Positions 298-60,529 of a stretch of DNA of 64,000 nt are shown one piece after another. Under the pieces are notes generated by a model. It was not told the DNA's origin, searched no databases, and worked only from the letters and a program-made list of their open reading frames with translations. The DNA comes from Haematococcus lacustris. Taxonomy: Eukaryota; Chlorophyta; Chlorophyceae; Chlamydomonadales; Haematococcaceae. The first letter of the stretch is position 1. Each line of letters begins with the position of its first letter. Both the position numbers and the translations under genes were made by a program. The stretch lies in the NCBI GenBank assembly GCA_030144725.1, contig JASKMD010000003.1, forward strand, positions 17,160,618 to 17,224,617, written 5' to 3'.

Positions 298-1507
298 GAC
301 AGCAGGTCCAGCGCCGTCAGATTGACGTGGTGCAGCTCCGGGCTGCCCTGGGACTGGCCCCAGCCACCCCCTCCCAGGGGCCCCAGACTGGGCCAGATGC
401 CGCTGCAGCTACCTTGCAGCCTTCCCCTCCCGCCAGGAAACACCCCCCTGGCAGCATGATGGCTGCAGCTAGTGGCTCCGGTCCCTCACAACCATCAGAG
501 GCAGTGGTGGGCGTGGCACACTGGGCAGGGTCAGGCGAGGAGAAGAGGTTGCAGCAGGCAGTGGGTGGTAACCGGGAAAAAGGGGGTCGCTGGTGACAGG
601 CTGGAGCTGCCAGGTGCGGCACAATCGGTGGATGAGCTGCTGCAATGGGCCAACTTGGCGGCAGCTGGCGGGGCGCTGGTCTAGCTGCCAGTATTGGTGC
701 GATGCCAGCTGCTACAGCGCAATTCCCCGCCTCAAGGGCTGGCACAGGAGCAATGCGCGCAGTTGCGATCTACGTCTCCACCGAAATGGTGTGACCGCAC
801 CGTTTTCCCGCGACACATTATTCAAGTTGTGAGCAGCTGCTTGTCACAAGATGAATGAGGCGACAAAGCATTGGAGGGTAACGGAGAAGTTGGTGCACGG
901 TCATTTCCACCGGGCTGACATTTCTTCTTTGTGATGTGGCTTACACCGCTTAAGCCGTCAGCCGTTAGGCTGCTAGGCCGACATTTCTTCACAAACCGTA
1001 TCCTCAGACCGGGGTGACATTTCTTCACAAACCGTATCCTCAGAGCCAGGGCCCAGCACTCCCTCGCCAGCCAAGCGCACCAAGGTTGAGCAGGCAGCTG
1101 AGCCCACACAGCCCATCGAGGGCAAAAGCAAGGCCCAGGGCAAGGCTGCTTAAGTCAAGCCAGCACCACAGCCAGGCAAGTGGGTTGATCTGGACTGCAA
1201 TGCAGCGCTGAACAAGCAACGCTTTGGGGAGAGTAGGTGGCGCCCATTGGGAACTGGTGGTCAGACCTGCCAGCCAAGGGCAAGGAGTACCCTGGCCTGG
1301 GCTACAAGCGGGTGCGGGACAAGCCACCCAAGGCCCAGCAACAGCAGCAGCCTGCTGTGGCACAGTAGTGTGTGTCCCCCCACTTGAGTTGTCCTCAGCT
1401 TACAATTAGTGCGTGCATGCATGTCATGCCAACTCTAGACCATGGCCCTCGCGGTCAGGCAGTGGTGTAGGTGGTAGGCACTCATGCACCATGTCCATGT
1501 GCATTGG
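298..1507 (+). pseudogene. Decayed, internally deleted Fanzor-like (family 2) repeat, copy A
   Basis: This repeat is shared nearly base for base with 11589-11749 plus 17925-18890 (direct) and, from about 797 onward, with 10972-11570 (inverted). Its 3' part (about 1035-1366) encodes the C-terminal end of a Fanzor/TnpB-like protein: a Pro/Lys/Ala-rich linker, the remnant RuvC-III motif DLDCNAALN, and a tail rich in Gln ending at the TAG at 1366-1368. The reading frame is broken by a TAA in the linker (near 1150) and by a frameshift after the RuvC-III motif. RuvC-I and RuvC-II are absent, so it cannot make a nuclease. An A/T/C-containing 3' region (1369-1507) is conserved with the other family-2 copies. 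The 290-811 part has no recognisable domain. Confidence 0.6.
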
Positions 1508-10512: not shown

Positions 10513-11570
10513 TCCATCTGCGGTTACGGGCTGCTCACCAGCTGCTGTTCCTGCTGATGTTTCTGCTGTGGTGGCTGGGCTTGTCGCATCCAGCGTGGTG
10601 GCAATGGATGCTGCCAGCGCTGCGGCCCACGCTGCACAACCTAGCAATAGCACTGTAAGCATTCCTAGCACGCGTGCAGTGCGAGCGCACAGGTACGCAA
10701 AGGTGCCCAGAGAGGTGGCGCGGTACAGCGGGCGGGATGCGGTTGGGCGGTTGGAAGGTCCCCCTGTAACAGTATAGTGGCCTCCCCCTTACAGGGGGAG
10801 GTCCTCATGGGAGACCTGATTGGTACTGGGACAAGGCTTCAGTGCAAAACGCGAGTTTTAGCGCGCGTGAGTTACCGCGATAGCCTTCGCTACCCTCCAC
10901 TAGGGCGTGGTGCGAGCGGCAGGCCTGTCACGGATTGGCATGGCCAATGGCCGGGGTGACCCAATGCACATGGACATGGTGCATGAGTGCCTACCACCTA
11001 CACCATTGCCTGACCGCGAGGGCCATGGTCTAGAGTTGGCATGACATGCATGCACGCACTAATTGTAAGCTGAGGACAACTCAAGTGGGGGGACACACAC
11101 TACTGTGCCACAGCAGGCTGCTGCTGTTGCTGGGCCTTGGGTGGCTTGTCCCGCACCCGCTTGTAGCCCAGGCCAGGGTACTCCTTGCCCTTGGCTGGCA
11201 GGTCTGACCACCAGTTCCCAATGGGCGCCACCTACTCTCCCCAAAGCGTTGCTTGTTCAGCGCTGCATTGCAGTCCAGATCTACCCACTTGCCTGGCTGT
11301 GGTGCTGGCTTGACTTAAGCAGCCTTGCCCTGGGCCTTGCTTTTGCCCTCGATGGGCTGTGTGGGCTCAGCTGCCTGCTCAACCTTGGTGCGCTTGGCTG
11401 GCGAGGGAGTGCTGGGCCCTGGCTCTGAGGATACGGTTTGTGAAGAAATGTCAGCCCGGTGGAAATGACCGTGCACCAACTTCTCCGTTACCCTCCAATG
11501 CTTCGTCGCCTCATTCATTTTGTGACAAGCAGCTGCTCACAACTTGAATAATGTGTCGCGGGAAACGGTG
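10513..11570 (-). repeat. Inverted duplicate arm of 797-1646 plus 4709-5022
   Basis: Reverse complement of this interval reproduces 797-1646 joined directly to 4709-5022, with the 3.07-kb TIR element missing at 10823-10830. It contains the inverted Fanzor C-terminal relic (stop near 11103, RuvC-III remnant near 11270) and the inverted start of the hydrophobic/Thr-rich ORF (LGMLTVLLLGCAAW, about 10605-10671). Relative to copy A it also lacks about 50 bp near 11570. Roughly 5.4 kb of unrelated repeat separates the arms. Confidence 0.8.
10972..11550 (-). pseudogene. Decayed Fanzor-like (family 2) C-terminus, copy B
   Basis: Minus-strand copy of the C-terminal linker, DLDCNAALN remnant, and Gln-rich tail seen in copy A, sharing the same TAA nonsense codon in the linker and the same post-RuvC-III frameshift. 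The 3' flanking region 10972-11100 matches 1369-1507. Sharing of the same lesions shows that copies A and B are duplicates of one already-broken copy. Confidence 0.6.
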
Positions 11571-17924: not shown

Positions 17925-19000
17925 ACCCCCCTGGCAGCATGATGGCTGCAGCTAGTGGCTCCGGTCCCTCACAACCATCAGAGGCAGTGGTGGGCGTGGC
18001 ACACTGAGCGGGGTCAGGCGAGGAGAAGAGGTTGCAGCAGGCAGTGGGTGGTAACCGGGAAAAAGGGGTCGCTGGTGACAGGCTGGAGCTGCCAGGTGCG
18101 GCACAATCGGTGGATGAGCTGCTGCAATGGGCTAACTTGGCGGCAGCTGGCGGGGCGCTGGTCTAGCTGCTAGTATCGGTGCGATGCCAGCTGCCTACGG
18201 CGCATTTCCCCGCCTCCAGGGCTGGCACAGGAGCAATGCGCGCAGTTGCGATCTACGTCTCCACCGAAATGGTGTGACCGCACCGTTTCCCGCGACACAT
18301 TATTCAAGTTGTGAGCAGCTGCTTGTCACAAGATGAATGAGGCGACAAAGCATTGGAGGGTAACGGAGAAGTTGGTGCACGGTCATTTCCACCGGGCTGA
18401 CATTTCTTCACAAACCGTATCCTCAGAGCCAGGGCCCAGCACTCCCTCGCCAGCCAAGCGCACCAAGGTTGAGCAGGCAGCTGAGCCCACACAGCCCATC
18501 GAGGGCAAAAGCAAGGCCCAGGGCAAGGCTGCTAAAGTCAAGCCAGCACCACAGCCAGGCAAGTGGGTAGATCTGGACTGCAATGCAGCGCTGAACAAGC
18601 AACGCTTTGGGGAGAGCAGGTGCCGCCCATTGGGAACTGGTGGTCAGACCTGCCAGCCAAGGGCAAGGAGTACCCTGGCCTGGGCTACAAGCGGGTGCGG
18701 GACAAGCCACCCAAGGCCCAGCAACAGCAGCAGCCTGCTGTGGCACAGTAGTGTGTGTCCCCCCACTTGAGTTGTCCTCAGCTTACAATTAGTGCGTGCA
18801 TGCATGTCATGCCAACTCTAGACCATGGCCCTCGCGGTCAGGCAATGGTGTAGGTGGTAGGCACTCATGCACCATGCCCATGTGCATTGGGTATACTCCA
18901 CACAGCCCCTTAACACCATTTTGAGTTGTCCCGCTAGAGACCCCTAGTGATCCCTAGTGTTCCGGCTCAAATGGAGGCCCTAGTGAGGGACGAGGGGCCT
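17925..19000 (+). pseudogene. Decayed Fanzor-like (family 2) repeat, copy C
   Basis: Continuation of the repeat interrupted by the LTR element. An ORF from 18333 encodes the Ser/Pro/Lys-rich linker with PSPAKRTK and a KSKAQGKAAKVK basic stretch, then DLDCNAALN. The linker here lacks the nonsense codon of copies A and B. After RuvC-III a frameshift moves the conserved tail (KGKEYPGLGYKRVRDKPP) to another frame; it ends at TAG 18749-18751. The 3' region 18752-19000 is conserved with 23809-24067, so the element end is near 19000. RuvC-I and RuvC-II are missing. Confidence 0.6.
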
Positions 19001-22145: not shown

Positions 22146-22752
22146 TTCGCTGCTATCTGAAGTAGTGGAGGCAGCCTCTGAGGGCTGCTATGGTGCTACG
22201 GAGTTGAGGGTGCTGTGGTAGCAGGACGGGACGGGGCGCACAGGAAGGGGTGAAGTGCGGGAGTTATGTTTGTTATTCGAGCAGGCTCGTTGCCAGGCTT
22301 GTTGTCTGCACTGTACATTTATATGCAGTATGGGAGGTGCCAGGTTGCGGTGTCTGTGTTCTAGCCTTTAGTCCGCAGAGCCCGAGGCTCGGATGGGCTT
22401 TAGATACTGTGCATCCTGGTTCGGCCTGGGCGGTCGCGGAACTATATATATGTGCATTCACTTCCATTTGCATTAGGCTGCATTGGCCCGTGTGTGCTAG
22501 CTACGCGTGGTGGTAAGCGGGCAGGGCCCGCAGCCAGGGACCTCCAGGCAATCTCCAGTCTATGCGGGCAGCCTGTTTCGTTAACTGTTGCACTTCCTTG
22601 AGCGCCGGCCAGGGAGTGAAGAACGGACTGGGCCAGCCGCTTTGCTATACTGAGGCTGTCAGGTAAGACCCCCCCGTGTTGGGGGCTGGTGCTGCGGCTG
22701 TGCCTGGACCCCGGCTGCATCCAGCACTTGTGTATTTTCACACAACCGTGTA

Positions 22753-24067
22753 TTTTCCACGGGAAACCCAAGTTGCTTGAAAAGCTTGTGGGAGGTGTAC
22801 CTGGACCCCAAGTGGGCACGGCAGCGGCTGAGGCTGTACGGAGCCCAGGACCGGGCGCTTGAGCAGTTCTTCAGCAAGGTGAGGTTGGGTGGGTGGGTAG
22901 GTGTGTGGGAGGGAGGGTAAGGTGGGCACTGGGAGGTGTGGTGGGTTGGGCATGAAGTGAAAGAGTACTTGATTGTGCCATGCCTAACCTGGTGTCACCA
23001 TGTCAGCCACCATGTGTGTGCCTTGTGTGCATGGCTGCAGCTGGAGGAGGAGATGGCTGAGCTGTCCATGAAGCGCCACAATCATGCCAAGCAGCTGGTG
23101 GTGTTCTTTGGTGCAGCTACCATTGGCACTGGGGGTGGGTGGGGTGCTGACGCGGGGCTGCGAGCCTGCCGCAAGGTGGTGTGCAGGCCCAGGGGTCCAG
23201 ACCAGCTGCGAGGCAAGGTGGTGCTTGTGGATGAGCACCGCACCAGCCGGGTCAGCTCAGCAGTGAATGGCCAGCAGCCATGTGAGGGGGAGCTGGACCA
23301 TGAGCAGCCCACTAGGCCTACAGGCTGGAAGCCCCCAGCAGGGCAGGTGGAACAGCGCCTGGTGCGCCCAGCCTGGAGCCAGGAGCGTGGCCAGCCAGTG
23401 CGGGGCCTGATGTGGTGCCCAGTAGTGCCCCCCCGCAAGCCCCCACAGGTCCCACGCAGCAGCCAGGCAGCCACACAGCCAGCAGCCTCAGAGCCAGGGC
23501 CCAGCACCCCCCCTCCAGCCAAGCGCAGCAAGCCGGCAGCTGAGCCCACCAAGGGCAAGGTCAAGGGCAAGGCTGCCAAAGTCAAGCCAGCACCACAGCC
23601 GGGCAGGTGGCTAGACCGGGACTGCAATGCAGCATTGAACATGCAGCGCATTGGGGAGAGCAGGTGGCGCCCGCTGGAGCTGTGCTACTGGCCAGACCAG
23701 GGAGCTCTGCCAGCCAAGGGCAAGGAGTACCCTGGCCTGGGGTACAAGCGTCTGCGAGACAAGCCACCCAAGGCCCAGGAGCAGCAGCAGCCTGCTGAGG
23801 CACAGTAATGTGTGCCCCCTTTGTTGAGCTGTCATCAGCTTACAATTAGTGCATGCATTGTCATGCCAACTCTACACATTGCCCTCGTGGTCAGGCAATA
23901 GTGTAGGTGGTAGGCGGCTCATGTGCCATGTGCACTGGGTTTACTTCACACAGCCCAATAACACTGTTTGAGTCGGATCTAGTTAGTGGCTGCTAGTGGC
24001 TGCTAGTGGCTGCTAGTAGGTACTTCTGATCCGGCTCAAATGGAGGCCCTAGTGAGGGACAAGGGGG
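22753..24067 (+). pseudogene. 5'-truncated Fanzor-like (family 2) copy, C-terminal half intact
   Basis: Two exons. Exon about 22759-22878 encodes LKSLWEVYLDPKWARQRL and ends FFSK; exon 23041-23808 starts LEEEMAELSMKR. They flank a phase-0 intron (22879-23040) at the same place as in the family-1 copy. Family-1 equivalents are LWEEYLKPRWRRQRL and GFCKK. The second exon carries VVFFGAATIG (RuvC-II beta strand, no Glu at the usual place), VVLVDEHRTSRVSS (Glu codon 23233-23235), RGLMWC and WLDRDCNAALNM (RuvC-III Asp codon 23620-23622). A basic linker (PPAKRSK, GKVKGKAAKVK) between the zinc-ribbon remnant and RuvC-III may act as a nuclear signal. The 5' part with RuvC-I is absent, so the copy is not functional as an endonuclease. 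The 3' region 23809-24067 is shared with copies A-C. Confidence 0.72.
23809..24067 (+). ncRNA. Conserved 3' region of family-2 element, candidate guide-RNA scaffold
   Basis: Conserved with 18752-19000 and, in part, with 1369-1507 and 10972-11100 although it is non-coding. A 12-bp stem (ttgagtcggatc at 23968-23979 with gatccggctcaa at 24028-24039, one G-U pair) closes a loop with three tagtggctgc repeats. In TnpB and Fanzor systems the guide RNA starts at the 3' end of the nuclease gene; that role is inferred here. Confidence 0.4.
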
Positions 24068-25949: not shown

Positions 25950-26235
25950 AGAGAACTTGCAGGGAAGAATTTGTAAAGACTTGGCGTGCGTCTCTGTAGG
26001 GTGGTGGGCTGGGCATCAGCATGAGGCAGACAAGATCTGGTGGATGACATGTAACTGGGCAGTGCCACTCTCACATCCAGCTTGGGTGCAGCTGGCAGAC
26101 CTGGAGGCTGAAAGCCCCTGGGTGCTGGTTACTGCGTTCAGCGTGGAGCCAGCAGCGTGACCAGCAAGTCAGTAACCTGATTTGGTGCCTGGCAGTGGCC
26201 CCACGCATCTCCACACAACCAGGCGGCTTCACAGA
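25950..26235 (+). pseudogene. Old Fanzor-like (family 2) relic
   Basis: The interval about 26085-26225 aligns by eye with 23330-23455 (ctggaggctgaaagcccc, cgtggagccagcagcgtg, tgatttggtgc, ccccacgcatctccaca), with many differences and no reading frame. It ends exactly where the minus-strand family-1 element begins, so the latter inserted into it or recombined with it. Confidence 0.4.
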
Positions 26236-26242
26236 CAAACAA

Positions 26243-26474
26243 AACTCATTCAACAAGGAACAACATGTCGGCCTGTGGGTAATCTCACTCAGCTACTACA
26301 AACACGTTGTAGCATCCTCGGTCGCACCCTTGATGACTGCAAACCCCACTCCGGTGGCACGTTCTGGGGGCCAACCCCCATGACCACTGGGCACCTCATC
26401 AAAACTAACAGCTTAATGCTTGAAAGGCTAACAGCCTGTGCAAACTACTAGGGCCTACGCATTGTTGCGGGCCC
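26243..26474 (-). ncRNA. Candidate Fanzor guide RNA (fRNA/omega-RNA) scaffold
   Basis: This region overlaps the nuclease stop codon and runs to the element 3' end. It is conserved in copies at 56694-56950, 59084-59320 and, partly, 47304-47482. On the plus strand the hairpins are: gggcc-ta-cgca/ttgt/tgcg-ggccc at 26451-26474 spanning the stop codon; aggct/aac/agcct at 26425-26437; tggggg/ccaa/ccccca at 26365-26380; ccac/tccg/gtgg at 26346-26357; ctacaa/acacg/ttgtag at 26296-26312. In the 47.3-kb copy the fourth hairpin is ccat/tccg/atgg, a paired change. Known TnpB and Fanzor guide RNAs occupy this position and take the guide from the sequence beyond the element end. The role is inferred. Confidence 0.5.
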
Positions 26475-29400
26475 GGCCATCAATACCCCGGCGGTACTCT
26501 GCAGCCCGGTGCAGCCTCTGCCTGCCCTTGGGCAGCCGGTCATTGACCAGCTTGTAGCGCTGATGGTACTCCTTGCCAATGGGGGGCAGGGCCTCCAGGT
26601 CATCCCAGCGGCACAGCTCCAAGGGGCGCTGCTTGCTCTCCCCAATGCGCTAGAAGTTCAGGCACGGGTTGGTGTCCCGGTCCAGCCACCTGCCCCATGG
26701 GGGGGCCTGGGGTCGTGGCACTGGGCCAGGTGGGGGCTGGGCAGGGGGAGGGGGCTGGGCTGCGGGAGGGGGTTGGGCCTGGGCAAGGAGGACTGGGGGA
26801 GGGGGGTCCTGGGCTGGGGGAAGGGGAGGGGGGTCATGGGCAGGGGCAGGAGGAGGGTCCTGGGCAGGGGCAGGGGGGTCCTGGGCAGGGGCAGGGGGAG
26901 GGTCCTGGGCAAGGGGGGCTGGGGGAGGGGGAGGGGGGTTGGGCGGCACCTCATGGCACCACTTCAGGCCCCGCACACACTTAGCATGCCGCAGGCTCCA
27001 GGCTGGGCGCAACAGCCGGTGGTTGACCTGGCCTGCTGGGGGTACCCAGTCCGCGGGCCTAGGCTGGTTGGCCGGCAGGTGTAGCTCACATGGCTGGCGG
27101 GCGTGCACAGAGGAGCTGACACGGCTGGTGCGGAACTCATCCACGATCACAAGCCTGTCAGGCCTGGGATCCGTGCTGGGCCTGCTGGGCTGCTCCACCA
27201 CCTTGCGAAACCCCGCCCGCACCGCCCCCGCCTTCCACCCACCCTGGCTGAAATTGCCCGCTCCCAGGAACACCGCGACTCCCCTCTCTTGGTGGTAGTG
27301 CTGGCGTGACACCCACTTTATCCCATTCACCACCTGCAGGTCAGGGTCAGGTCAGGTACCAGGTCAGGTACCAGGTCAGGTCATGGTCAGGGTCAGGTCA
27401 GGTCAGGTCAGGTACCAGGTCAGGTACCAGGTCAGGTCAGGTCAGGTCAGGTCAGGGTCAGGTCAGGTGTCAGGTCAGGTCAGGTCAGGTCAGGTCAGGT
27501 CAGGTCAGGTCAGGTCAGGTCAGGTCAGGTCAGGTCAGGTCAGGGTCAGGTCAGGTACCAGGTCAGGTCAGGTCAGGTCAGGTCAGGGTCAGGTCAGGTA
27601 CCAGGTCAGGTCAGGTCAGGTCAGGTCAGGTCAGGTCAGGTCAGGTCAGGTCAGGGTCAGGTCAGGTACCAGGTCAGGTCAGGTCAGGTCAGGTCAGGTC
27701 AGGTCAGGTCAGGTCAGGGTCAGGTCAGGTACCAGGTCAGGTCAGGTCAGGTCAGGTCAGGTCAGGTCAGGTCAGGTCAGGTCAGGGTCAGGTCAGGTAC
27801 CAGGTCAGGTCAGGTCAGGTCAGGTCAGGGTCAGGTCAGGTACCAGGTCAGGTCAGGTCAGGTCAGGTCAGGTCAGGTCAGGTCAGGTCAGGTCAGGTCA
27901 GGTCAGGGTCAGGTCAGGTACCAGGTCAGGTCAGGTCAGGTCAGGTCAGGTCAGGTCAGGTCAGGTCAGGGTCAGGTCAGGTACCAGGTCAGGTCAGGTC
28001 AGGTCAGGTCAGGTCAGGTCAGGTCAGGTCATACCTTCTTGCAGAAGCCCTCAATGACGCGCTCCTGGGCATGGTGCAACGCCAACCGCTGCCGGCGCCA
28101 GCGTGGCTTGAGGTACTCCTCCCACAGCGGGTCCCAGGTGGCCTTGAGGGCCAGGATGTGGGCATGGAGGCCATCCAGGGTGGTGCCAGCTGGGGTGGCA
28201 GCTGCCAGCTGCTGCAGCTGTGGCTGGATGGCAGCTGACCAACGGGCTGTGTCCTGCTTGGCTTTGGTAAGCCCGCTGTCATGCTTAAGCTTCCCCTTGG
28301 TCAGCTCCCACTCCCACTGCCTGAGCACCTGACCTGTGGCTGGGTCCCGCATTGCATGTGCAGCCTTGATGGCCTGGGTGACACCGGGGTCCACCCCGAC
28401 GGCTATGTGGGTGACTGGGCTGTAGTCACTCGTGGTTGTGAGCTCACGCCCTATGAAGGGCAGCTCTACTGGCTCATGGACTGCCTGGCTGCGCACAAAG
28501 TGAACACTGACGCTAACCCCATCTGTCTCTACCCTACGGGCAAATTCCCACCCGCTGTTCTGCAGCTGGCTGTACTGGATAAACCGCTGCCAGTGGGGCA
28601 GGCTGTCAGCCTCAAACCTGGCCCGTGTCAGGGTGCCCTGGCCCAGGTCAGCCAGCAGGCCATGCAACACCCTGTCATCGATGACAAAGTGCCTGGCCCG
28701 CACCCCCACCATAGGGAGCATGGTGAAGGGGCGCGGGCAGGTGCGAGGGCGGCGGCTGTTGCCATGGGGTTTGGCATGGGGGGCTGTCTGCCAGGCCTCT
28801 AGGCTGCGGTTCAGAAACAGGACGTACCGCACCCTGTTCTCTATGGGCAACCAGCCTGCACCCCCCTTCCCTATCGACCCCCCTTCCACTCCCGCCTCCC
28901 ACTCTGCCGGCAGCCCCAGCAGCCCCCTGTGCCAGACGACCTCGTCCCGCCACCCATCCTGCCGTAACACACTCCCGGTCTGGCTGGCTGTAGTCAAGCC
29001 TACCTAGCACCAGTTTGGGGAAGTGCGGCGTGTGGGGAGGCGGGGGTGAGCGTAGGGAGGGCAGGCTGGGTCAGGTGGGGGAGGGGGGCATGGGGCTGGA
29101 CCTGCTGCAGGGAAGCCTGGAGTAGGCTGGCCAAGGAATGACTGCAGCAGCATGGTCAGCGACATGACCGATGCCAGGCAACACTGCATGCTGCCGCTGG
29201 TCATGCGCTGGTTGACCTGTGCCAACACTGCATCGACTTGGGCTAGGCTGAGGTCTGGCAGCGCTGCCTCCACAAGGGCACGAAAGGCGGCCTTGATCAC
29301 CTGACGCCGCTCTGCAATCACCTCCTGCTCACCCTGTGCCTGCCCCTCATCCTCTTGCTGCCCACTGCCGCTGGGACCTGCATTACATGGAGTCGCAATG

Positions 29401-29529
29401 CCGCGTGGTACACACTGCGTCGCGTCGTGAGAGGGGCCTAGCCTTTCGTTGAGCTTAGTAGCTTAGTGGCTTACCGGCTGCACCCTGTGCGGGGGTGACG
29501 GGGCGCTTGCGTTTCCTTTTCGGCGGCAT
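26455..29529 (-). CDS. Fanzor/TnpB-like RuvC nuclease, family 1 (two in-frame UAGs)
   Basis: Exon 1 (29529-29475) starts MPPKRKRKRP, a nuclear-localisation-like signal, and splices (GT-AG, 97-bp intron) to exon 2 at 29377 in frame. Exon 2 continues with VIAERRQVIKAAFRALVE and a Pro-rich stretch; an in-frame TAG occurs at about 29004. The central part has VETDGVSVSVHF and the RuvC-I motif AVGVDPGVTQ (Asp codon 28391-28389), followed by a basic bridge-helix-like segment KPRWRRQRLALHHAQERV. A 701-bp intron (28034-27334) of GACCT repeats follows, then VAVFLGAGNFS, VIVDEFRTSRVSS (Glu codon 27138-27136), a single zinc-ribbon Cys region (CVRGLKWC), an 80-residue Pro-rich linker and WLDRDTNPCLNF (RuvC-III Asp codon 26676-26674). 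A CAG-to-TAG change at 26652-26650 interrupts the last 65 residues; copies 2 and 3 have CAG there. By family the protein would be an RNA-guided DNA endonuclease of the nucleus. This copy is probably inactive unless the UAGs are bypassed. Confidence 0.8.
27334..28034 (-). repeat. GACCT pentanucleotide array forming the nuclease intron
   Basis: The intron consists almost only of gacct (minus strand) units, with a higher-order pattern: each block of about 45-75 bp is punctuated by ggtacctgacctgaccct. It has a consensus donor (aag|gtatga) and acceptor (ctgcag|gtggtg). Confidence 0.9.
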
Positions 29530-29990
29530 CACAGGGGTTCAGCAACACCATCCAGGCGGAGAGGCCGTGCTGGAAGGCGCATCAGGTCGCCATCCATTCG
29601 ATTGGGGCGGAAATGATAATCATTACAATATATCCATTATTGCACTGCATTATACCTGGCTTCTAAATCCTAGATACTAAATGCTTCTTGGAGGTACTCC
29701 CATCAGCTTGAGCTGCTCAAACGCGGCAATGCCGCGTACGCTTGCCACCACCTTCTGGCCAGCTACCCCACTTTGAGACCGGCTGACATCGGCCTGGACG
29801 GTTACCTTTCTTTCCTCCAGGATGCTGTTCACCACCTGGCAGCAGTGCAAGCGGTGCAAGCCCAACACACAACGACACTATGGATGTGCAGTGGATGCAA
29901 TGAGTACCAAAGGGACCCACCAGGTGGGTGTGATCACAGTGCAATGAGTTTGGTTGCCCCCTTTGTTTGTACTTAATAGGTGTTCTATGT

Positions 29991-30122
29991 CCTTTTCGGC
30001 GGCATCACAGGGGTTCAGCAGCACCATCCAGGCGGAGAGGCCGTGCTGGAAGGCGCATCAGGTCGCCATCCATTCGATTGGGGCGGAAATGGTATCCATT
30101 ACAATGTATCCATTATTGCACT
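29991..30122 (-). repeat. Isolated 5'-end fragment of the Fanzor element
   Basis: Matches 29517-29648 with few differences and includes the ATG of exon 1, but breaks after the codons for MPPKR. It lies 340 bp upstream of copy 1 in the same orientation. The 29654-29990 interval between them shows no recognisable gene. Confidence 0.75.
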
Positions 30123-44034: not shown

Positions 44035-47863
<3,829 letters not shown>

Positions 47864-48201
47864 GTGCGTCACACATTTGTTGCACAGTATGCTGCCTAAT
47901 AGTCCCAATACTGCCCTTTGACATGCAAACCTCCTTTCACATACAACGAGTTGAGCTTATGCGTAGGGTCATCATACACTGTGGTTCTAGCATGGGGAAG
48001 ATAATCAATAGCGTGACATTGTGTATCGGTGTGTTGGCGGTTCGTTAATTTGGTGGTAGCGACCAAAGGCTGCCCGTAGACCCTATTAACACAACCTTGA
48101 TGATAGTGCCCGACACCCTATTTATTGTTGCATTGCAGAAACTATGTCACTCCGATGTCACTTGTGTGCACATTTGCATTTGATAATGAGTGAGATAATT
48201 G
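47864..48201. other. No gene recognised before assembly gap
   Basis: May hold a pirin intron. Nothing else was seen. Confidence 0.4.
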
Positions 48202-48701
48202 NNNNNNNNNNNNNNNNNNNNNNNNNNNNNNNNNNNNNNNNNNNNNNNNNNNNNNNNNNNNNNNNNNNNNNNNNNNNNNNNNNNNNNNNNNNNNNNNNNN
48301 NNNNNNNNNNNNNNNNNNNNNNNNNNNNNNNNNNNNNNNNNNNNNNNNNNNNNNNNNNNNNNNNNNNNNNNNNNNNNNNNNNNNNNNNNNNNNNNNNNNN
48401 NNNNNNNNNNNNNNNNNNNNNNNNNNNNNNNNNNNNNNNNNNNNNNNNNNNNNNNNNNNNNNNNNNNNNNNNNNNNNNNNNNNNNNNNNNNNNNNNNNNN
48501 NNNNNNNNNNNNNNNNNNNNNNNNNNNNNNNNNNNNNNNNNNNNNNNNNNNNNNNNNNNNNNNNNNNNNNNNNNNNNNNNNNNNNNNNNNNNNNNNNNNN
48601 NNNNNNNNNNNNNNNNNNNNNNNNNNNNNNNNNNNNNNNNNNNNNNNNNNNNNNNNNNNNNNNNNNNNNNNNNNNNNNNNNNNNNNNNNNNNNNNNNNNN
48701 N
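48202..48701. other. Assembly gap of 500 N
   Basis: Exactly 500 Ns, a typical placeholder size, so the real length is unknown. Confidence 0.99.
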
Positions 48702-48820
48702 GTCACGTGCCTCGTCACGGCCCTCGCCACAAGCGGGGCCAGCACCCCCTTTATTGTGGTGTGGTACGTGAGAGGTACCAGTTGGGTTGGAAGCACAACA
48801 GGAAAAGCATGGCAAAAACA

Positions 48821-48894
48821 TGTCTCCGGAGAGGCTCGAACTCCCGACCTTTCGCGTGTGAGGCGAATGTGATAACCAACTACACCACAGAGAC
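48821..48894 (-). tRNA. tRNA-Val(CAC)
   Basis: On the minus strand the 74-nt sequence starts GTCTCTG and ends CGGAGAC plus discriminator A, giving a 7-bp acceptor stem with one G-T pair. The D region reads GTGTAGTTGGTTATCAC, matching the A box; the anticodon arm is TTCGC-CTCACAC-GCGAA with anticodon CAC; the T arm GGGAG-TTCGAGC-CTCTC follows. There is no intron and no encoded CCA. It lies next to the gap and upstream of nothing recognisable. Confidence 0.95.
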
Positions 48895-49828
48895 CGGGTC
48901 ACGTCCACAGTCGGCTGTGGTCGGCCAGCACAGACGACTGTGTACGAACCTGATGGTAGTTGTGTGCTTGTAGTGCTATATATAGCTGCATTTTGATGAT
49001 ACACAATCTCTGACCAAAATGTAGACAATGCACAATCTCTGACCATCAGGACTTTTTATCCTACTTCCGCCTATGCTGTGCCACTAGAACGTGTCCGCTT
49101 ATATTGGCTCCGGGCCAAAATGCTAATATTAGTTTATATACGAGCTAATATTAGCTACAGCGGCTAGTATGAACTACAACGAGCTAATGTGAGCTACAGC
49201 GAGCTAACATGAGCTAATATGAGCTACAGCGGGCGATACAGGGAGCTAATGTGAGCTACAGGGAGCTGATATGAGCTGATTTGAATTCTAATATCAGCTG
49301 GGGGGAAACCGCCCTAGGTGCCACACGTGTCATTCGGGGTTCCAGAGCATCCGCTGCTTGTGGTTAAGCAGGCAGACAGGGTGTCACGTAAGCTTGTGAT
49401 TGGTGAGTGTCCTTGTTTATGCAAGTGCTGCAGGCTATGGGCCTATCAGCATTGAACGATTTGAAACATGACATCACACATAACATACACACCGCTTCAA
49501 CTTATAAACACAGCATTTGCTATTCACGGGTTTCTCTTTCCATGTACCAAAATGTTGTTGATGCCTTCGGTACCATCCGTCTATACTGTCACAGTTATTT
49601 GGCAATCTACCGCTATTGCGCACTTTTCCGATTTTTGCAAAGATTCTGACTCAATCTATAAGCACCGAGGTTAGGTTACTAATACAATCACAGTCTTTGT
49701 CACACTCTCTAGGGGGGGTGCATGCCGGTTAGCTACAAAAGTAACTTCAGTCTTTTTCACACTTTATGTGCAAAAGAATGCAGGGACGCAACTGCATGCA
49801 ACAGCACCGCCGCTTGCTGCAGCCAGGC
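48895..49828. other. No gene; AT-richer GAGCTAATATGAGCTACA repeats
   Basis: 49125-49300 consists of imperfect tandem gagcta-a-tatgagctacagcg units, far more AT-rich than the surroundings. The rest shows no gene signal. Confidence 0.6.
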
Positions 49829-49956
49829 TCACCTGCGAGAGTACAGCTCGACCAGCGCCTGCACGGCCTCAGGGGGGAGCGCCGGCAGCCGGTCACTCAG
49901 GATGTGCGGCTCCAAGGCGTCCAAGAACTCAGGCAGGGGGCCGACAGGGGACGGCT

Positions 49957-50002
<46 letters not shown>

Positions 50003-55838: not shown

Positions 55839-58800
55839 ATGGGTACGACCATGCAGAAGGCGCAACTTATATCTGAACTACAGCGTGATGCCGCCCATCT
55901 AGGCAATTGCCACCGCGATGTTGGTTGCCAACTGCCATTCTTGCATGGTGAAATAACCATGCTTGCGATGCCAACTAGCGTAACTCTCAGCAAGTTTTAT
56001 CTACACAGGACTACGCAGCAGCACATCGCCGCGTGCCTAAGGCAGTGTGAGCAGGACAAGACGGATGGGGGCAGGACAAAGGCCGCGCACACCTCAAGCG
56101 CTCTACGTTAGTGTCGTCGAATGTATGTATTGTACTGCGCTGTTGCTCACATGAAAACACTGCTCCTGTGCCTCCACACAGCGTCGCACACCTTGCGTGA
56201 AGGAGAACGAGTTCTGGAAGCAGCGAGTGGCTAGGGTGCGTAAAATGTTGCAACCCGACATGTCCCGCTACGACAGCTTGCATGCCACAGGGATGCATGT
56301 CACAGCTGTCACTTGCATGTCACAGCATGTTACATGTGCAAACCCCGTCTCCAGCACCACTTCCCCACCTTCACATGCGTCTGCTGCATCAGCCCCGGTT
56401 TTTTGTCCTTGCTCCCTGGCTGCTTCTCCAGCTCCCTGCACTGCCATATTGATTCAGCACACACCACGCAACGGAGAAGCATCTGCTGCCAGAGACTTAT
56501 TAGCCATGTCATGCGTGCCATGTGCCCACGGTTCCATGGACAAGAAGTCAAGCCTCTACTTACCACTCTCGGTTAGCAAATGGGCGCAGCTGGCGGATTG
56601 CAAGCTAGAGTAGCTGGCGTCCATGCTCGCGTCCGGGCCGTCAGACTGGGCAGAGTGGCGAGGGTGCGTAAAATGTCAGACTGGGCAGATCAGTGCCAAC
56701 AAAACTCATTCAACAAGGAACAACATGTCGACCTGTGGGTAATCTCACTCAGCTACTACAAACATGTTGTAGCATCCTCGGTTGCACCCTTGATGACTGC
56801 AAACCCCACGTAGATGGCACGTTCTGGGGCTAATCCCCCATGACCACTGGGCACCTCATCAAAACTAACAGCTTAATGCTTGAAAGGCTAACAGCCTGTG
56901 CAAACTACTAGGGCCTACGCATTGTTGCGGGCCCGGCCATCAATACTCCACCGGTACTCTGCAGCCCGGTGCAGCCTCTGCCTGGCCTTGGGCAGCCGGT
57001 CATTGACCAGCTTGTAGCGCTGATGGTACTCCTTGCCAATGGGGGGCAGGGCCTCCAGGTCATCCCAGCGGCACAGCTCCAGGGGCCCTGCTTGCTCTCC
57101 CCAATGCGCTGGAAGTTCAGGCACGGGTTGGTGTCCCGGTCCAGCCACCTGCCCCATGGGGGGGCCTGGGGTCGCTGTACCGGGCCAGGTGGGGGCTGGG
57201 CAGGGGGAGGGGGCTGGGCTGCGGGAGGGGGCTGGGCCTGGGCAAGGAGGACTGGGGGAGGGGGGTCCTGGGCTGGGGGAAGGGGAGGGGGGTCCTGGGC
57301 TGGGCAGATCAGACACTGCAAGCTTCCACACAGGGTGTTGACCTGAGCGATGTGTACTCTTTCTCTGCACCACCTTAGCCACCTGACTCGACTTTGGCCA
57401 GGCCTTCCAGGAATGCAGCTAACGGGATTTGAACCCTGGTTGCAGGAGGAGCGTCCTCTCACTCCTCACTCTTACTCACACGCTTGCCACCTCAGGTCAC
57501 CAGCAGCCGTCCAGGCGCCTTGTACGGCCCCCTGCCTGCCACCCGCACCCTATCCGCCCCCTCCCTGCCCCGCCCGCCCCCCTCACCCACAGCCCCCCCC
57601 CTGACCCCCAGCCGTAGCCCCCACCTTGGCCACCGTGAAGCTGGCCCCCCCTCCCCACCCCCTCCCCAGCAGGACAGGGAGGAGGAGGATCAGGCTGCAG
57701 CTCAGGCCCCCCACCAGCAAGCCAGCCCCAGCCCAGGCAGCTGCCCACCCACCCCCACCTCCCCCTCCCACCTCTTCCACTCTCCCAACCGTTTTGCAAC
57801 CCAGGCCTACGCCAGCGCTGGGGCCAGCGCCCTGCCCGGTTCCCACTGGCAGCCAGGCCCCCCCTCCTCCCCCGCAACCAGGCCAGCTGCCTTGTCCAGC
57901 CCTGCCCTGGGGCCTCACCATCCCGCCACCTTCTCCCCAGCTTCCACCCAGCTTCCTGGCCCCGACAGCCTGGCACGTCACAGCACACGGCGCAGCAACA
58001 GCCTGAGCCGCAGCGGCACGCTGCCCACTGCTGCCTGGATGGGCTCCAGCATCCGCCCCTACCCCTCCTCCGCGTTGCAGTCCCGGGCAGCGTGTGAGGG
58101 GCCCAGAGGGGAGGAGGGGGCGGGGGGCCGGGGCTTCCCCAGGGTCAGGCAGTGGGCCATGGTCAACGGGGAGGCGCTCACAGGGCTGCGTTCCTCCCAG
58201 CACACCTTCCCTGACCCCCCTCCCTTGGCTGGGCCTATTGGTGGGTAGGGGCGGAGATGCAGGGGGGCAGCGGGGAGGGAGGGGGGCAGGGGAGAGTAGG
58301 AGGGGGGGTGGAGGGGGGCGTCTAGTCCGGGCGCTGACCTGACCTGACCTGACCTGACCTGACCTGACCTGACCTGACCTGACCTGACCTGACCTGACCT
58401 GACCTGACCTGACCTGACCTGACCTGACCTGACCTGACCTGACCTGACCTGACCTGACCTGACCTGACCTGACCTGACCTGACCTGACCTGACCTGACCT
58501 GACCTGACCTGACCTGACCTGACCTGCAGTGGACGTGAGTGCCACATTAGCCAGCAGCGCAGACCCTGGCACGCAGCGCTCCTCCACGCAAAGCCAACTG
58601 GTGGGCAAGGCCAGGGCAGGCCGCTCCCCCACCACCCACTGCCCCCCCCCCCCCCCCACCCTGCCCTGCTCCCCGCCCACCCCCACCCCACCCCACCCCT
58701 CCTGCCCCTACCCCAACCCCTGACCCCACCCCTCCTGCCCCTGACCCCTGACCCACACACCCCTCTGCCAGACCTGCTCTGGCTGCTTTCCACTTGTGAA

Positions 58801-60529
58801 GGGAGCACTTGTGATAACCACATGCTGGCTGCTGATGATCAGATGCCCTGTGAGAAGGCTTGCAGTGGAGGGTCAGGGCTATTGACTGGGAGGTCAGCAA
58901 CAGGGGCAGCACACTGGGCAGCAGCATGTTGCAGGCTCGACAATGCCAGTCGCCAGGCTCTGAGTTTACTAGTTTAGGCTAGTTTAGACTAGTTTACTGA
59001 GTTTACTAGTTTAGTAGACTCTGAGTCTACTAGTTTAGGCCAAGCTTGGCCTAAACTAGTAGACATGACCAGACCTTGAGGCAATGCAAACAAAACTCAT
59101 TCAACAAGGAACGACATGTCGGCCTGTGGGTAATCTCACTCAGCTACTACAAACATGTTGTAGCATCCTTGGTCGCACCCTTGATGACTGCAAACCCCAC
59201 TCCGGTGGCACGTTCTGGGGGCCAACCCCCATGACCACTGGGCACCTCATCAAAACTAACAGCTGAATGCTTGAAAGGCTAACAGCCTGTGCAAACTACT
59301 AGGGCCTACGCATTGTTGCGGGCCCGGCCATCAATACCCCGCCGGAACTCAGCAGCCCGGTGCAGCCTCTGCCTGGCCTTGGGCAGCCGGTCATTGACCA
59401 GCTTGTAGCGCTGATGGTACTCCTTGCCTATGGGGGGCAGGGCCTCCAGGTCAGTCCAGCTGCACAGCTCCAGGGGGCGCTGCTTGCTCTCCCCAATGCG
59501 TTGGAAATTGAGGCACGGGTTGGTGTCCCGGTCCAGCCACCTGCCCCATGGGGGGGCCTGGGGTCGCTGTACCGGGCCAGGTCCTCTTGCTGCCCACTGC
59601 ATCCTCTTGCTGCCCACTGCCGCTGGGACCTGCATTACATGGAGTCGCAATGCCGCGTGGTGCACACTGCGTCGCGTCGTTAGAGGGGCCTAACCTTTCG
59701 TTGAGCTTAGTAGCTTAGTGGCTTACCGGCTGCACCCTGTGCGGGGGTGACGGGGCGCTTGCGTTTCCTTTTCGGCGGCATCACAGGGGTTCAGCAACAC
59801 CATCCAGGCGGAGAGGCCGTGCTGGAAGGCGCATCAGGTCGCCATCCATTCGATTGGGGCGGAAATGGTATCCATTACAATATATCCATTGTTGCACTGC
59901 ATTCGAGACCCAACTGCATTCGAGACCCAACCGAGACCCAGACCTTGAGGCAGTCCGCCCAGCAAATGGTTCAAAAGTCATACACAAGGTAGGAGGGAGT
60001 TTTCCTAACTTAATATTCTTTATGTACTGTATGTTTTTTTACTGTGTTTCAATTCTGTGCATGCTTGCTTGGTTGATCAGCTGGACCGCATCCAGCAAAC
60101 TGCGGAGGCGCTAGCAAGGGAGCGGTCTGTGACCACTGCGCTGCGCTCAGCGCTGAGGGCTTCATCCCACTCGTGAGCTGGGGCGGAGTGGGGATGGAGA
60201 GGGGCGCGTGTGGAGGGGGGCTGGGGCAGGGTGTGCGTAGAAGGAGCTTGGGCATGGCTGTGTGTTGAGGGAGCTTGGGCATGGCTGTGTGTGGAGGGCA
60301 CAACGGGTTGACAGTAGAGACGGGGCATTGGAGTGAGGAGGGCGAGTAGAGGCTTCTTGGGGCTTCAACCCTGACTCTCATCTCGTCCCATCTGTGACCA
60401 TGAAGTCTGGATGATGACAGTCAACCTGGGGCGCCCTGTATGCTTGCTGTGGCCCCTGCTGCCCGCACAGGGCCATGCGTTCGGACCTGGCCAAGCTGCA
60501 CTACACCTACCCCTCGGGACCTTGAACCC
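55839..60529 (+). CDS. Unrecognised multi-exon gene divergent from VPS8 (speculative model)
   Basis: Starts 89 bp from the VPS8 start on the opposite strand. A first ORF from 55839 reads MGTTMQKAQLISELQRDAAH. Later plus-strand coding-like blocks with splice-compatible borders are KENEFWKQRVARVRKMLQPD (about 56200-56262), a Ser/Arg-rich stretch HSTRRSNSLSRSGTLPTAAW (about 57985-58040), VDVSATLASSADPGTQRSS (from 58529, right after a GACCT-repeat acceptor), LDRIQQTAEALARERSVTTA (60080-60170) and a terminal RSDLAKLHYTYPSGP stop (60483-60529). The Arg/Ser-rich and coiled-coil-like blocks could belong to one protein, but this is inference; I recognise no family. Two Fanzor-element copies (56694 and 59084) would lie in its introns. 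Confidence 0.3.
56694..57299 (-). pseudogene. 5'-truncated Fanzor element, copy 2
   Basis: Contains the 3' region (56694-56930) and the C-terminal coding part: Pro-rich linker, WLDRDTNPCLNFQRIGES with CAG intact where copy 1 has TAG, and the tail to NNA stop. A one-base deletion near 57085 shifts frame after GES (KQGPW instead of KQRPL). It is truncated within the linker at 57299. A 13-bp direct repeat ctgggcagatcag flanks it at 56681-56693 and 57300-57312. Confidence 0.8.
58336..58525 (+). repeat. (GACCT)38 array ending in a splice-acceptor-like GCAG
   Basis: Thirty-eight perfect gacct units are followed by gcag|tggacgtgag. Same unit and same orientation relative to the presumed transcript as the nuclease intron at 27334-28034. 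Confidence 0.9.
59084..59937 (-). mobile_element. Internally deleted Fanzor element, copy 3
   Basis: Keeps the 3' region (59084-59310), the C-terminal tail and RuvC-III codons (about 59310-59580), then jumps to the first bases of exon 2, intron 1, exon 1 (ATG 59781, MPPKRKRKRP) and the 5' end (to about 59901), followed by a short tandem gcattcgagaccca. RuvC-I and RuvC-II are deleted and the join is out of frame. A 15-bp direct repeat ccagaccttgaggca flanks it at 59069-59083 and 59938-59952. Confidence 0.8.

Follow-up and report, generated by a model that had tools for sequence, protein, structure and literature searches.

A probable decayed copy of an abundant mobile element carrying a Fanzor1-like gene with a lost zinc finger in Haematococcus lacustris

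Background

Fanzor proteins bear two fingerprints, a DPG motif at RuvC-I and a catalytic glutamate situated six residues ahead of the zinc finger (PMC10711439); a C4 zinc finger between RuvC-II and RuvC-III is part of the 2013 Fanzor definition and is ascribed to "many" Fanzors in the 2023 paper. Among green algae, Fanzors are described for Chlamydomonas reinhardtii, Volvox, and Chlorella (Bao and Jurka 2013, PMC3627910); furthermore, the most abundant repeat of Auxenochlorella is reported to encode a Fanzor, and Chloropicon is also named (PMC12636532). Concerning the elements that carry such genes, CRe-1, CRe-2, and CRe-3 of C. reinhardtii are characterised by over-abundant 3' ends, truncation, and target duplications, and are tied to Helitron2 (Bao and Jurka, PMC3627910). 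Here, a stretch of 64,000 nucleotides (nt) of the Haematococcus lacustris contig JASKMD010000003.1 is described (the window, to which all coordinates refer), in which a Fanzor-type RuvC gene (26455-29529, minus strand) lies inside a mobile element of about 3.4 kb. Literature searches on Fanzor together with Haematococcus, Chlamydomonas, Helitron, or the combination of zinc, introns, and green algae, and on TnpB together with Haematococcus, gave no listing pointing to the Haematococcus family, the results being mostly judged by the listings.

Results and discussion

The window element is likely to be one decayed copy of a mobile element that is abundant in H. lacustris/pluvialis and codes for a Fanzor1-like RuvC endonuclease; the element may be helped by RNA-guided cutting and is probably mobilised in trans. 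Beyond the initial annotation, which had recognised the nuclease gene, the comparison with relatives reveals that the CCCC zinc finger is lost throughout the family, and that the gene resides in a 3'-anchored, often 5'-truncated element with target duplications, in which the intron is kept. The element is organised as follows, from its 5' to its 3' side:

26231-29651, minus strand: Fanzor-bearing mobile element, delimited where homology to other copies ends (at about 26231-26238 on the 3' side and at 29651 in the longest copies)
29475-29529, minus strand: exon 1, MPPKRKRKRPVTPAQGAAG, nuclear-signal-like by inspection, with ATG and GT splice site
29028-29377, minus strand: beginning of exon 2 (N-terminal region), as far as a 397-nt deletion
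28974-29027, minus strand: 54-nt stretch between the 397-nt and a 26-nt deletion, containing TAG 29004-29006 (alignment with L005, L009, L012, and L018)
28035-28973, minus strand: remainder of exon 2, with RuvC-I (Asp codon 28389-28391) and a basic helical stretch
27334-28034, minus strand: 701-nt intron of CCTGA-type units (minisatellite) with GT-AG ends
26455-27333, minus strand: last exon, with Ealt (Glu codon 27136-27138), lost zinc finger, proline-rich linker, RuvC-III (26674-26682), and stop
26947-27117, minus strand: former zinc-finger region, with SSSV at 27106-27117 instead of CxxC and CHEV at 26947-26958 (family counts; printed SpuFz1 and PpFz1 fragments)
26650-26652, minus strand: in-frame TAG at a position where relatives possess Gln
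26236-26440, minus strand: transferable 3' tail ending in TTTTGTT, its last ~200 nt common to elements of other bodies

Fanzor identity of the gene

All motifs quoted in the initial annotation were recovered on the minus strand: MPPKRKRKRP, which starts at ATG 29527-29529 and looks like a nuclear signal, GVDPG, the basic stretch (KPRWRRQRLALHHAQERVIEGFCKK), VDEFRTSR, and LDRDTNPCLNF (Asp codons 26680-26682 and 26674-26676). Exon 1, whose start is alike in the relatives P0009 and P0010, is followed by a short first intron and the long exon 2; the full-length protein of relatives comprises about 886 residues (P0010). A four-exon model with an intron at 28988-29101 was abandoned because relatives revealed the two deletions in this region.

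At RuvC-I the window copy possesses GVDPG, and GIDPG or GVDPG predominates in relatives; the Ealt stretch reads E-FRTSRV-S, with six residues separating the Glu from the first zinc position; and LDRD supplies the RuvC-III Asp, both in the window copy and in almost every relative covering this stretch. With its exons joined, the window copy exhibits DPG, the Glu six residues ahead of the zinc-finger position, and D[RN]D in this order, as do 89 of 214 relatives, and the catalytic residues D, E, and D are conserved across both clades of the family (the second, of P0117 type, is about 40-45% identical to P0010). An AlphaFold model of one relative, although of low confidence (mean predicted local distance difference test score, pLDDT, of 50), retrieved SpuFz1 chains on ranks 1-4 in a Foldseek search against the PDB (best E 4.3e-4); the VIA-align comparison tested mainly residues 89-300 of this model. 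The first structure model (A2, P0010; mean pLDDT 32) was left out of the structure search.

That the alga harbours a TnpB/Fanzor-type RuvC protein in a mobile element is thus borne out, and the identity rests on the DPG and Ealt fingerprint together with the top Foldseek matches, not on profile matches. The TnpB/OrfB profile test proposed initially failed: the motif-bearing exons gave no Pfam or NCBIfam match, PF07282 gave none in the window exons and none in the genome search, and in every relative scanned it stayed under the cut-off, except in the tandem fusion P0109 (27.0 bits). A Pfam scan of the N-terminal piece gave two chance-level rows only, the PDB sequence searches yielded nothing useful, and a scan of viral contigs matched 74 stretches, none of which was confirmed.

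Copies, relatives, and selection

The joined frame matched 366 predicted proteins at E <= 0.01 (8000 candidates scored) and a second-clade query matched 682, the overlap being uncounted; the matches listed (120 of 366 and 120 of 682) were all from H. lacustris, as judged by eye. At the genomic level, a 323-residue exon piece had at least 125 matches in the same genome, which is a lower bound with 124 of 5185 first-look candidates scored, and 31 of the 125 rows contained an internal stop (by eye). Open reading frames are present in other copies, in agreement with the expectation that intact source copies exist elsewhere.

For the selection test, 20 mostly stop-free loci were picked by hand, giving 21 exon-2 stretches, from which L024, L034, and L040 were removed on account of stops. 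The 18 chosen open copies show a signature of purifying selection in the ratio of nonsynonymous to synonymous substitution (dN/dS; 153 pairs, 149 with dS > 0.03, median 0.287, none >= 1), with the caveat that choosing open frames may favour constrained copies. The weak profile scores would suit an unrelated repeat protein in which the motifs arose by chance; yet the D-E-D triad is invariant at Fanzor spacing, four SpuFz1 chains lead the Foldseek ranking, and purifying selection is apparent, and this explanation is very improbable.

Two further observations concern the relatives. Predicted proteins such as P0023, P0109, and P0121 contain repeated Fanzor pieces or joined domains and are probably gene-model fusions; and at L028, open Fanzor elements are arranged head to tail in tandem, repeating every ~3313 nt.

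Loss of the zinc finger

Within 16 residues after DExRT, the first CxxC was found in none of 231 motifs in 214 proteins, open copies included; the first pair is SSxV instead, with S..V in 86 of the 89 proteins that possess the ordered DPG-Glu-D[RN]D arrangement. At the second zinc pair, 169 of the 188 stretches matched have WC..V, and the complete zinc-finger pattern occurs in none of the 214 relatives, so that three of the four cysteines are lost across the family. Damage to the window copy elsewhere might suggest an ordinary Fanzor1 whose finger decayed in this copy only, but the counts refute this for the listed proteins, and such a local loss is the least probable of the explanations considered. 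As the same loss is found in the P0117-type clade, it probably predates the split of the two clades. The absence of the CCCC finger also accounts for PF07282 being silent or below its cut-off outside P0109.

A protein of Fanzor descent in which RNA-guided cutting disappeared along with the finger and which took on another job, e.g., binding DNA or RNA ends, would fit the family-wide disappearance of three cysteines, and equally the negative result on a guide-RNA structure in the 3' tail (nothing matched in Rfam; none of 29 pairs showed double changes, and hence no covariation; z between -1.78 and 0.63). However, the catalytic D, E, and D are kept over both clades, and the cysteines of QPCE and WC remain conserved, such that some metal binding may be possible; loss of cutting is considered unlikely.

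Decay of the window copy

Alignment with L018, L012, and L009 reveals two deletions in the window copy, one of 397 nt following 29027 and one of 26 nt following 28974; when L005 is the reference, the larger gap is placed after 29025. Together with TAG 26650-26652 in the last exon, these deletions mean that the copy is broken, as had been proposed, although on partly different grounds: only one of the two UAGs then named, that at 26650-26652, is an in-frame stop, whereas TAG 29004-29006 sits between the two deletions. As likewise anticipated, another copy (59312-59548) is open across the Gln position in one frame.

Since the stop occupies a Gln position, TAG might have been reassigned to Gln. 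This possibility was rejected because the gene itself terminates in TAG and because the excess of TAG among the stops of other copies (32 TAG, 8 TGA, and 3 TAA, in the 31 of 125 rows noted above, counted by eye) is near the 32 : 13 : 0 (TAG:TGA:TAA) predicted for C-to-T and G-to-A decay at the CAG and TGG codons of the exon; the three observed TAA stops are unpredicted by this decay.

Element ends, target duplications, and 3' tail

On the 3' side, homology breaks off abruptly at TTTTGTT (26238 in the window), whereas the 5' endpoints vary between copies. The 21-nt 3' terminus has 792 exact matches in the genome, its reversed control none. A target duplication of at least 11 nt was found upstream of 23 of 46 3' ends examined, a lower bound given that many retrieved stretches were too short to include the 5' end, and in 12 of 377 mismatched end pairs used as control. 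The duplications measure 11-20 nt, and in all 23 a CTG occurs among the first six bases; the stretches between the duplication and the 3' end are 95 to 5726 nt long, the longest containing an insert. Over-abundance of the 3' end, 5' truncation, and duplications are thus found together, as in the CRe/Helitron2 type (duplications of ~7-19 bp). Neither the main window copy nor that at 59087-59903 yielded such a duplication.

Among 20 tail sites sampled, seven (L041, L042, L046, L047, L048, L055, and L058) have only the last ~200 nt in common with the window element; they are without Fanzor sequence, and some have a common body. Two of them, L048 and L058, measure 815 and 778 nt and have duplications of 18 and 20 nt, respectively, and a 799-nt element at L032 has only the last ~100 nt in common. 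An autonomous partner may be found among the relatives of the seven. Upstream of a tail-bearing element without Fanzor (L061), inspection of the frames by eye revealed no clear enzyme, no family scan having been run; Helitron_like_N gave 18 matches, and 5 kb downstream of a Helitron domain (L062) no tail was present, although this stretch may be too short.

The 3' anchoring, the frequent 5' truncation, the 11-20-nt duplications, and the recurrence of the same last ~200 nt on other bodies would be expected if the elements moved by target-primed reverse transcription, borrowing the machinery of a long interspersed nuclear element (LINE) via the 3' tail, with the nuclease gene as a passenger. However, 19 of 20 loci retain the intron (at L039, no junction was found), which speaks against a spliced RNA intermediate, and the same pattern is reported for Helitron2-related elements (Bao and Jurka, PMC3627910). 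LINE-based movement is a possibility to be taken seriously, though a somewhat doubtful one.

For the favoured reading, that of a trans-mobilised element helped by RNA-guided cutting, the following course can be proposed. The protein would enter the nucleus via its PKRKRKRP start and would bind an RNA read from the 3' end of the element, with the flanking DNA as guide; cutting of matching DNA would then allow the element to persist or spread, by analogy with what is proposed for TnpB. The nuclease (NUC) lobe would then hold without the CCCC site, and movement would probably occur in trans, by enzymes recognising the 3' tail common to other elements. The wider picture, a zinc-finger-less RNA-guided lineage of Fanzor1 type with hundreds of copies in one alga, carried by CTG-targeting elements whose transferable ~200-nt tail mobilises unrelated sequences, is put forward tentatively.

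Other copies and features in the window

Further copies of the element are situated in the window:

29990-30122, minus strand: second fragment of the element 5' end, 96% identical to 29514-29646
47290-47479, plus strand: 3'-end copy of ~190 nt with a 14-nt target duplication
56698-57307, minus strand: 5'-truncated copy with a 13-nt target duplication
59087-59903, minus strand: internally deleted copy with both ends present

In addition, fragments of the second clade lie at 1049-1320 (plus), 11148-11419 (minus), 18432-18703 (plus), and 22714-23760 (plus), three of which have mutual stretches 98-99% identical. Their 3' flanks are without the TTTTGTT tail and have another sequence in common; judging from these flanks, the two clades seem to be carried by elements with different ends. 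Concerning base composition, G+C falls to 0.37 at 48001-50000 (~0.48-0.70 elsewhere in the window), and 44643-47500 is occupied by an extensive array of short tandem repeats in which the A/T skew is strong (-0.61, -0.36).

Significance

Natural zinc-finger-less copies under purifying selection would reveal what the NUC lobe truly requires, and the element, whose target duplications are clear, adds a second example from green algae in which the movement of Fanzor-bearing elements can be studied. The copies also inflate the Haematococcus gene catalogue, as the numbers of predicted proteins matching the two clade queries illustrate.

Comparison with known systems

With bacterial TnpB (ISDra2), the Haematococcus family has the RuvC-III motif DRDxNAALN in common, whereas TnpB typically exhibits D-hydrophobic-G, a Glu placed about 50 residues ahead of the zinc finger, and a retained CCCC finger. 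The closest likeness at the protein level is to the Fanzor1 proteins SpuFz1 (PDB 8gkh, 9ceu), PpFz1 (9cf0), and GtFz1 (9cer), with which DPG, Ealt, DExRTS, an HGLL-like motif, W.RD, and a trailing RP are in common, and whose fold appears nearest as far as the model allows; the order DE[FY][RK]TS, HGLL, W.RD, RP is the same as in the printed SpuFz1 and PpFz1 fragments. Unlike these proteins, the Haematococcus family lacks the CCCC zinc finger, possesses a long proline-rich insert before RuvC-III, and reaches a high copy number in one genome.

At the level of the whole element, the organisation resembles that of the Fanzor1 CRe elements of Chlamydomonas as described by Bao and Jurka (PMC3627910): a multi-exon Fanzor1 gene, 3' over-abundance, 5' truncation, internal deletions, and variable target duplications. 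Despite this general similarity, the duplications of CRe elements come after TTTT or T-rich sequence, whereas those in Haematococcus contain CTG and none of the 23 follows TTTT (by eye); and CRe elements are tied to Helitron2, whereas the Haematococcus element is likened to them by its end pattern, not by Helitron ends.
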